Assembly (NCBI RefSeq): GCF_900141705.1
Contig: NZ_FQYM01000023.1
Span: 1-50,230, forward strand
DNA length: 50,230 nt
From: Fibrobacter sp. UWP2
GTDB taxonomy: Bacteria > Fibrobacterota > Fibrobacteria > Fibrobacterales > Fibrobacteraceae
Direction of reading: 5' to 3'
Part shown: positions 8,375 through 44,320 of the stretch, one piece after another
Numbering within the stretch: the first letter of the stretch is position 1
Layout: each line of letters starts with the position of its first letter
Program-made: the position numbers and the translations under genes
Notes under the pieces: model-generated
What the model was told of the DNA's origin: nothing
The model's input: the letters and a program-made list of their open reading frames with translations, nothing else
The model's database searches: none

Positions 8375-9897
8375 TATCTAAAATCCAGGCTATCGAGCGG
8401 GATCACCGTAAACGGCTTGAGAGCTTCCAGCTTTGCGACGGGCGCCACAATGGAAATCGTCATCTTGTTCTTGTCAAAATACTTGGCGACCATCGCCTTG
8501 ACCTGATCCTTGGTCACGGCATTCACTTCGGTTACAAAATTCTTGTAATGTTCCGGGGACTTTCCCAAAAGTTCATCTTTCGCAAAGATGGTCGCAATGG
8601 ATTCCGGGGAATCAAATAACGCAGGCAGACTTTCGACAATCGCCTTTTTAGCCTGGGCTAGTTCCTCGTCGGTGGGGCCTTCCTTTGCCAGCTTTTCCAC
8701 CTCTTCAAAAATGAGCTTGAGGGCAAAGTCGACCGATTCGACCTTGGTCTGCAGGGCGATGGTCGTCATGGCGGAATCACGATAGTCGTTGCCGGCAGAG
8801 CTATAAACACTATAGGCAAGTCCCTCGTCACTGCGCACGCGGTTCACGAGCCTGCTGGTAAAGCTGCCCCCGCCCAAAATAAAGCTTGCCACCGCCGTCG
8901 GGTAGTAGTCGGGGTGAGGGCGTTTCACAAACGGCTGGTTCATGGTAATGTTCGCCTGCGAAATGTCCTTGTCGACCACATAAACGCCCGGTTTACGGAC
9001 AAAGGCGATTGTCTCGGGCTTGGGCCTTGCCACCTTGGGGGCGTCCACTTTCCAGCCAGCAAAGAACTCCTTCATTTGCGTCACGGCGGAATCGCGGTCC
9101 ACATCGCCCGAGAGGGCGAATACAATGCGCTTCGAAGAGTAGGTCCCCTCGGCCAAGCGTTTCACGTCGGCAACGCTCACCTTCTTGTACTCGTCGGCGG
9201 TGGCGTCCCACATCCGCGGGTTCGGCGCATAGTTCACCTTGGACTTCAAAGCCGAGAGAATCTTGGCTGGCGTCTCGTAACGGCGTTCATGAGCGGTCAC
9301 AAAGTTCGCCTTAACAATTTCCAACTGGTTCTTGTCAAATGCAGGGGCGGTCAGGACCTTCTTCGCCAGTTCCAAAAGCGCAGGGAAATCCTTCGAAAGG
9401 CAGTCAATATCGAATGCCGAGAGGAACGTGCCCGCGCTAGTCGAGAGGGAAGCGCTGACAAATTCCAGGGAATCGTCCAGAGCGTGCGCCGAGATACCAC
9501 CGCCCGCACCGCGACGGAGCATGGTTCCCACCATTTCGGAGGCGGCCTCGTCCTTGATGTTTGACGCGACGTTCGATTCTTCAAAATAGACCGTCAAGTT
9601 CACCAGCGGAAGAGCGCGGTCGCTCACAATGTAGCCCGAAACGCCTTCAGCGATTTCGACGCGATAGTCCTTGGGGTACGGAGCCACATACTTGAATTCG
9701 GGATACTTGATGTCCTTGTAACTTGCCGGGACAACGGAAGGTTCAGAGGCGGGAGCCTCGGCAACCGCAGGGGCAGCCGTATCGGCGACCGCCGGAGCGG
9801 GGCTCGCCGTTTGGGGGGCGGGCGCAGAGGAGCACGCCGCAATTACGGCAAAACAGCCCGCGGCGACAAATCCAATTGAACTAGATCGTTTAAGCAT
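8374..9897 (-). CDS. M16-like (insulinase-fold) lipoprotein, probably non-catalytic
   Basis: A 507-residue protein. It begins with a lipoprotein signal peptide (lipobox around VIAAC, then a Ser/Ala/Pro-rich linker to about residue 60), followed by two M16 domains (about 65-280 and 290-500). The second domain has the family's substrate-binding pattern RLVNRVRSDEGLAYSVYS. The zinc motif HxxEH expected near residues 110-120 of the first domain is absent. The aligned segment reads ASEMVGTMLRRGA, so this should be an inactive partner subunit or a non-peptidase. No catalytic partner is adjacent. No good ribosome-binding site precedes the ATG, and a TATATT lies only 8 nt upstream, so a leaderless mRNA is possible. 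Confidence 0.82.
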   Translation of the reverse strand: MLKRSSSIGFVAAGCFAVIAACSSAPAPQTASPAPAVADTAAPAVAEAPASEPSVVPASYKDIKYPEFKYVAPYPKDYRVEIAEGVSGYIVSDRALPLVNLTVYFEESNVASNIKDEAASEMVGTMLRRGAGGGISAHALDDSLEFVSASLSTSAGTFLSAFDIDCLSKDFPALLELAKKVLTAPAFDKNQLEIVKANFVTAHERRYETPAKILSALKSKVNYAPNPRMWDATADEYKKVSVADVKRLAEGTYSSKRIVFALSGDVDRDSAVTQMKEFFAGWKVDAPKVARPKPETIAFVRKPGVYVVDKDISQANITMNQPFVKRPHPDYYPTAVASFILGGGSFTSRLVNRVRSDEGLAYSVYSSAGNDYRDSAMTTIALQTKVESVDFALKLIFEEVEKLAKEGPTDEELAQAKKAIVESLPALFDSPESIATIFAKDELLGKSPEHYKNFVTEVNAVTKDQVKAMVAKYFDKNKMTISIVAPVAKLEALKPFTVIPLDSLDFR

Positions 9898-9995
9898 TTG
9901 CCAAAATATAGATTAAATCGGGAATCCAGAAAAGCATTCTTCCAAGTTGGAGTAACAAATAAACAAGGAGTGTGTTCCAAATCAAAAAAAATCCG

Positions 9996-10001
9996 TATAT
10001 T
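9996..10001 (+). promoter_or_regulatory. Possible -10 element for the candidate small RNA
   Basis: TATATT on the plus strand, followed about 7-10 nt later by the first base of the closing stem of the structured element at 10009-10087. No convincing -35 hexamer is seen at 17 nt spacing (TGTTCC region). Confidence 0.3.
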
Positions 10002-10008
10002 AGTCAAT

Positions 10009-10091
10009 GAGCCCTTCTGGTGGATAACTTCCGGCATCGCCCAGCGAGCCGCCCGTCTCCAAGAGAGACACATCCACCAGAAAGGCTCTTT
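10009..10091 (+). ncRNA. Candidate small structured RNA with a three-way junction
   Basis: A 17-bp closing stem pairs 10009-10025 (GAGCCCTTCTGGTGGAT) with 10071-10087 (ATCCACCAGAAAGGCTC), with one mismatch. Inside are two hairpins: CGGC-A-TCGC / GCGA-GCCG at 10032-10051 and GTCTC/GAGAC at about 10055-10069. On the plus strand the closing stem is followed by TTTT and preceded by a TATATT. On the minus strand the one mismatch becomes a G-U pair, so strand is not certain. It matches no RNA family I can recall. It lacks the small SRP RNA tetraloop region and is too short for 6S RNA. No ORF explains the structure. Confidence 0.4.
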
Positions 10092-10107
10092 TCTCTATCC
10101 AAAAACT

Positions 10108-10139
10108 AAAAGGACATCGCCCGAGCGATGCCCTTTTTT
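10108..10139. terminator. Bidirectional intrinsic terminator
   Basis: The stem CATCGC (10115-10120) / GCGATG (10125-10130) is extended by AAGG/CCTT. It is flanked by T-runs on both strands (CCTTTTTT on plus; CCTTTTAGTTTTT on minus). It would end the minus-strand VWA gene whose stop is at 10159, and possibly plus-strand transcription of the candidate RNA. Confidence 0.75.
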
Positions 10140-20560: not shown

Positions 20561-20644
20561 AACGGTACTCCTATTTTCCTTTAAACTATTTTTTGGAGCA
20601 GCCGTTTTACAGGGGGGCAAGCGATATACTTTTGGAGTTTTGAC

Positions 20645-20676
20645 AAAAGAGCCTCCGAGTAAAACTCGGAGGCTCT
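20645..20676 (-). promoter_or_regulatory. Terminator-like hairpin in the leader of the clan GH-A gene
   Basis: A 13-bp perfect stem, AGAGCCTCCGAGT / ACTCGGAGGCTCT, followed on the minus strand by TTTTGTC, sits 88 nt before the start codon. The xylanase gene upstream already has its own terminator at 20793-20828. This one could therefore be an attenuator or a second terminator. The 308-bp gap 20561-20868 otherwise holds AT-rich sequence and no ORF I can support. Confidence 0.5.
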
Positions 20677-20792
20677 GATCCATAACCAACCCTATTTTTC
20701 TTTGAATCTTTCGATTCAACAGCTATAATTTAACCCCTTTTGAGGGTAATTTGTTACACCGCAAAATATATTTCATTTACAAAATGTAAATA

Positions 20793-20828
20793 AAAGGGTT
20801 CCCGGGGCACCCCGGGAATCCTTTTAGG
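20793..20828 (-). terminator. Intrinsic terminator of the first GH10 gene
   Basis: The near-perfect stem AAAGGGTTCCCGGGG / CCCCGGGAATCCTTTT with a 2-4 nt loop is followed on the minus strand by TTTTATTT. It lies about 40 nt after the stop at 20869. Confidence 0.9.
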
Positions 20829-20868
20829 TGTCAACTCCACTTGGAGTCTGGATTAGGATCATTTTGGA

Positions 20869-28754: not shown

Positions 28755-28817
28755 GGATTTGTGCTATAAGGCAAAAGGATTCATAACCTCCCCCAACACC
28801 GCCACCTTACGGTGGTA

Positions 28818-28848
28818 AGAGTCTCCGCGAATGCGGGGGCTCTTTTTT
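28818..28848 (+). terminator. Intrinsic terminator of the plus-strand CE1 gene
   Basis: The stem AGAG-CTCCGC / GCGGGGG-CTCT is followed by TTTTTT on the plus strand, about 65 nt after the stop. Confidence 0.85.
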
Positions 28849-28867
28849 ATACCCCGCACTCGACAGA

Positions 28868-28897
28868 AGAGCCCGGGGCGTAAATGCCTCGGGCTCT
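28868..28897 (-). terminator. Hairpin downstream of the minus-strand CE1 gene
   Basis: The stem AGAGCCCG-GGC / GCC-CGGGCTCT with a 6-nt loop lies 23 nt after the stop at 28920. Only a weak T-run follows on the minus strand, so this is a probable but weaker terminator. Confidence 0.55.
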
Positions 28898-28919
28898 GTT
28901 GTTAGGAGTGTGTTATGTA

Positions 28920-44261: not shown

Positions 44262-44292
44262 AAAAAAAAGCCCCTCTGGAAACCAGAGGGGC
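44262..44292 (-). terminator. Intrinsic terminator of the second GH43 gene
   Basis: A perfect 10-bp stem, GCCCCTCTGG / CCAGAGGGGC, with a 3-nt loop, followed on the minus strand by TTTTTTTTGC. Confidence 0.95.
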
Positions 44293-44320
44293 AAGGAGGA
44301 TATGGTATTATGGAGACTTT

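Follow-up and report, generated by a model that had tools for sequence, protein, structure and literature searches.

A candidate, previously uncatalogued small RNA gene of Fibrobacter with a conserved three-way junction and a palindrome-associated promoter

Locus and fold of the RNA

The window, a stretch of 50,230 nt from Fibrobacter sp. UWP2, contains a structured RNA between a divergent M16 peptidase gene and a convergent VWA gene, both of which lie on the other strand. The region 10009-10139 on the plus strand has a minimum free energy (MFE) of -58.0 kcal/mol, compared with -28.2 +/- 3.7 kcal/mol for 200 dinucleotide shuffles (z = -8.12, none of the 200 as stable), a value that covers the core together with the downstream terminator, to which part of the excess stability belongs. 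The 80-nt core alone reaches -42.4 kcal/mol, which comes close to the most stable tiles of 86 nt in the window.

The core (10009-10088, plus strand) folds into a three-way junction, in which a closing stem (P1) carries two hairpins (P2 and P3). The two strands of P1, 10009-10025 and 10072-10088, form 16 pairs over 17 positions (10009-10013 with 10084-10088, and 10015-10025 with 10072-10082), interrupted by the single mismatch C10014-A10083, as described for the closing stem in a previous sequence-only reading of this DNA. Both enclosed hairpins were called perfect in that reading, which is true of P3 (10055-10069, GUCUC-CAAGA-GAGAC, 5 bp) and not of P2 (10032-10051), which has 8 bp and one bulged A. 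No ORF explains the structure, as had also been noted; on the plus strand, the longest reading frame spanning it is an arbitrary one of 319 aa that overlaps the minus-strand VWA gene. A six-codon micro-ORF (MSPSGG, from ATG at 10007 to TAA) was rejected as coding, being absent from the homologues of other groups. Elsewhere in the window, the most stable structures are found at 28811-28910, where two strong terminator-like hairpins of an ordinary kind are located between convergent genes, and two more strong terminator-like hairpins flank an AT-rich gap at 20640-20830.

Conservation and distribution in the genus

A single copy of the RNA was found in its own genome by BLAST, and a BLAST search of 61 related genomes gave strong matches (67-86% identity) within the same genus. 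Two covariance models, R1 and R2, were built from 13 and 33 homologues respectively, and searches with them detected the RNA in 64 of the 79 Fibrobacter genomes, always in single copy. No convincing homologue was found with these models outside Fibrobacter, where only short stem-like matches were obtained, such as those in G040 (37 nt) and G046 (58 nt), which were taken as chance. A weak R1 match within the window at 44263-44296 on the minus strand (22 bits over 34 nt) covers a stem only and is probably due to chance as well. Scanning GTDB genomes for the promoter plus 5' stem pattern returned 20 records, all from Fibrobacter except one from a 'Fibrobacterales bacterium'.

The homologues fall into four sequence groups, A (the type of the window), B (with a long P2), C and D, plus the single intermediates L089 and L090. 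Group D scores lower with R2 (31-36 bits); the exact promoter layout is nevertheless common to these loci. In groups A and C and most of group D, the RNA is placed between the divergent M16 peptidase gene and the convergent VWA gene. Most of group B carries it after a presumed biotin synthase gene (bioB-like), at L030 it follows what is presumably an ornithine or aspartate carbamoyltransferase gene, and at L089 an M16 gene is directly downstream on the same strand. RNA and promoter stay together in different gene neighbourhoods. Seven near-complete genomes of the genus (99% complete) gave no match to the RNA, and the M16 and VWA genes are adjacent without the RNA between them at locus L161 of G124 (99% complete); therefore, it is widespread in Fibrobacter yet apparently dispensable. 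In a further clade, the VWA gene has another neighbour and the RNA was not found. The VWA homologue of G115 (L170) has one in-frame TAA, denoting either a pseudogene or an assembly error.

All 48 distinct homologues, folded singly, take the same shape of two hairpins on a closing stem, and at least 9 of the 14 closing pairs are present in the MFE structure of every one of them. A plain MAFFT alignment analyzed with RNAalifold was uninformative, with the long P2 insertions misaligned, and a model-guided alignment of 33 sequences was used instead. In this alignment 94.6% of the cells pair and nine of the 27 pairs are changed on both sides, including five of the eight P2 pairs and two of the five P3 pairs; the P3 cells are paired in all cases (100%). 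Cells with double-sided changes number 39, as opposed to 11.7 in shuffles. The covariation score of 0.163 is twice that of shuffles and compares with 0.032-0.090 in slid registers, every one of which is worse. An alignment fitted to a structure leans towards that structure, while the single-sequence folds are independent of it. Compensatory cases can be seen in P3, where GUCUC/GAGAC is replaced by GACUC/GAGUC in group C and by AUCUC/GAGAU in L089, and in P2, where UCGC/GCGA is replaced by UCAC/GUGA in L012. The sequence-only reading had proposed a compact three-way-junction RNA, to be checked by a covariance search and by looking for compensatory base changes in the stems; the fold and the homologues found bear the proposal out on both counts. 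P2 lengthens to about 40 nt in one lineage and varies in sequence as well as length, whereas the junction is retained. Conservation is highest at paired bases (GUGG/CCACC and AGCC/GGCU), and the loops are variable.

Promoter, palindrome and 3' end

The -10 element TATATT of the RNA gene (9996-10001, plus strand), already noticed ahead of the stem in the sequence-only reading, is present in all 51 homologous loci compared, with its first base 13-16 nt, nearly always 14, ahead of the stem's AGC. Since TATATT precedes the stem by 14 bases in nearly every homologue, transcription is predicted to start at the foot of P1, about 10007-10009. A palindrome, TTCCAAGTTGGAG, is located at 9940-9952 on the plus strand, centred about -62 from the predicted start, and is a probable activator site in view of its fixed spacing and its association with promoters throughout the genus. 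In all 51 loci, which cover at least three gene contexts, the palindrome TTCCAAnTTGGA starts exactly 56 bp before the -10 element, though the loci come from related genomes and the spacing counts are thus non-independent. The 43 nt between the palindrome and the -10 element are only about 42% identical between groups, so it is the spacing that is conserved and not the sequence. One group has a palindrome with a degenerate right half (TTCCAAnnTAGAcCA). Class I activators, e.g. CRP, act near -62 in other bacteria. No recognisable TTGACA -35 box was seen at the RNA promoter, which would fit an activated promoter.

Palindrome matches with at most one mismatch number 29 in the own genome versus five for a reversed control, with palindromic sites counted on both strands. 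The combination of palindrome and TATATT gave matches in 31 of the 41 genomes searched and none for the control. By these counts, TTCCAAnTTGGAA is a genus-wide promoter-associated site of Fibrobacter. Its distances to TATATT cluster at 42-47, 55-56 and 65-67 bp, in steps of roughly a helical turn, a spacing that is suggestive only, as many of the loci are orthologues. Genes 3' of the sites presumably include those for an MFS sugar porter, response regulators, FIST-like proteins and secreted proteins. At L110, one copy precedes a gene that begins like one for a PadR-type regulator.

In the window (9897-9952), the M16 peptidase gene and the RNA diverge from promoters on either side of the palindrome. 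The -10 element of the M16 gene (9905-9910, minus strand) is 42 bp from the same palindrome, and an equivalent arrangement was found by pattern at L134. The M16 gene and the RNA may be co-regulated via the common palindrome. That the -10 element and palindrome serve as the M16 promoter only was rejected, as they accompany the RNA also at loci that lack an adjacent M16 gene.

Downstream of the core, a U-tract and pyrimidine-rich linker, UUUUCUCUAUCC, occupies 10089-10107 on the plus strand, followed by a terminator hairpin with T6 at 10108-10139 (hairpin 10108-10137, T6 10134-10139), which has an A-run upstream and is possibly usable from both sides. The TTTT following the stem (10089-10092) and the terminator beyond it had been read likewise before. 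The linker is kept in some lineages, where a separate terminator hairpin comes after a pyrimidine-rich stretch (UCUAUCCUCC-like); in others, U6-U8 directly follows P1 and the CU-rich tail is absent. In the window, P1 is followed by U4 and then by a strong terminator hairpin from 10108 on, so that transcription may stop near 10092 or 10139.

The sequence-only reading had also considered a minus-strand origin of the structure, as part of the VWA mRNA 3' end. In the minus-strand fold the single mismatch does become G-U, as had been pointed out, the minus strand folds more stably (mean -42.4 versus -36.3), and VWA converges on the RNA in three lineages. However, the terminator hairpin 10108-10139 separates VWA from the RNA, the minus strand lacks a U-tract after the structure, and where VWA is no neighbour (mostly after the bioB-like gene) the RNA is kept with its fixed plus-strand promoter. 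Wobble pairs do not decide the strand, because G-U and A-C cells of the closing stem balance over the 48 homologues (18 versus 19); their count was set aside as a neutral strand test. We consider a VWA 3' end very unlikely. A plus-strand promoter and an intrinsic terminator, both recognised by sequence only, were found along with a structure supported by compensatory changes, and the RNA is almost certainly encoded by a stand-alone plus-strand gene with its own promoter and terminator.

Proposed function and relation to known RNAs

None of the 4227 models of Rfam release 15 matched the window at the gathering threshold, in agreement with the failure of the sequence-only reading to recognise an RNA family; isrD, mir-316 and SurC appeared at a relaxed threshold, far below the cut-off, and were discarded. 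In the open-access literature, neither a report of this RNA nor any small regulatory RNA of Fibrobacter was found, and in one paper (PMC2864571) Fibrobacteres is named solely in a reference title. The RNA is thus a candidate for a previously uncatalogued small RNA gene of Fibrobacter. A 6S identity was rejected, with no match to RF00013 even at E <= 1 in the genus genomes sampled and a fold that lacks the rod with central bubble. An SRP RNA identity was rejected as well, the Fibrobacter SRP RNA (RF00169) matching at another locus (G000 contig 14). Hfq was found in none of 13 genus genomes, with positive controls, and CsrA in none of the 13; a Hfq-dependent base-pairing sRNA and, with a single GGA in the core 10009-10088, a CsrA-sequestering RNA were both rejected.

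The sequence supports a model in which an activator-type promoter (palindrome near -62 and -10 box) would give a plus-strand transcript from the foot of P1, containing the conserved three-way junction and followed by factor-independent termination. The transcript would be from about 85 nt (termination at the stem end) to about 131 nt (at the next hairpin). A dimeric activator bound to TTCCAAnTTGGAA might switch the RNA on together with genes for sugar uptake, signalling, secreted enzymes and the M16 protease. Without Hfq, the RNA would then act in trans. Its unpaired parts, the P3 loop and the CU-rich tail of those lineages that have one, would most likely pair with ribosome-binding regions, and P1 and the junction would provide stability or a protein handle. 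We favour such a trans-acting regulatory RNA because of the activator control, the small size and the CU-rich tail of several lineages, and our confidence in an activator-controlled, Hfq-independent sRNA that works by base pairing is evenly divided.

The same gene could possibly, with somewhat lower probability, produce an RNA that binds a protein (RNA polymerase, the ribosome or another partner) and pairs with no mRNA. This explanation deserves a real share, because Hfq and CsrA matches are lacking, the invariant bases are paired and the loops are variable; antisense pairing explains conserved bases that are paired no better than a protein ligand does. Invariant positions cluster in the stems, P2 is free to vary in sequence and length as long as the junction is kept, and neither Hfq nor an Rfam 6S was found. 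On the other hand, no known protein-binding motif was recognised, multiple GGA motifs are missing, CsrA was not found, and the shape is not the 6S rod with central bubble. A more specific form, a lineage-specific protein-binding global regulator under a carbohydrate-linked activator, e.g. a ligand of RNA polymerase or the ribosome replacing 6S-type control, seems improbable. A riboswitch, leader or attenuator acting in cis is more doubtful still: three-way junctions do occur in riboswitches and L089 has an M16 gene directly downstream on the same strand, but the window neighbours are both on the opposite strand, a conserved same-strand downstream gene is lacking and an intrinsic terminator follows the RNA. 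We give hardly any weight to a mobile or repeat element or a chance inverted repeat, which could account for a long inverted repeat in an intergenic gap and for its clean absence from the L161 genome, where M16 and VWA are adjacent; it is at odds with the single copy per genome, and compensatory changes and a fixed promoter are not expected in a dead repeat.

Fibrobacter is a major rumen cellulose degrader, and the RNA gene now has predicted ends and a promoter site common to a putative regulon. The palindrome points to a regulator of sugar and secreted-enzyme genes, and the genomes without the RNA (e.g. that of L161) are natural nulls that make its function directly testable.

Among known systems, 6S RNA (RF00013) is likewise stand-alone, mostly double-stranded and single copy, and the genus has no 6S match by the Rfam model; the Fibrobacter RNA is half as long and branched, in contrast to the 6S rod with central bubble. 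The small SRP RNA is similar in length, with the Fibrobacter SRP RNA encoded elsewhere. CyaR and Spot 42 are activator-dependent regulatory small RNAs of enterobacteria. The Fibrobacter RNA differs from them in having no known sequence relation, no Hfq found in the genus, a palindrome unlike the CRP site and a conserved three-way junction where they have simple hairpins. What it would share with them is a stand-alone intergenic gene of about 85-130 nt, with a regulator site at its promoter and an intrinsic terminator, and a regulator that is linked to sugar genes too.
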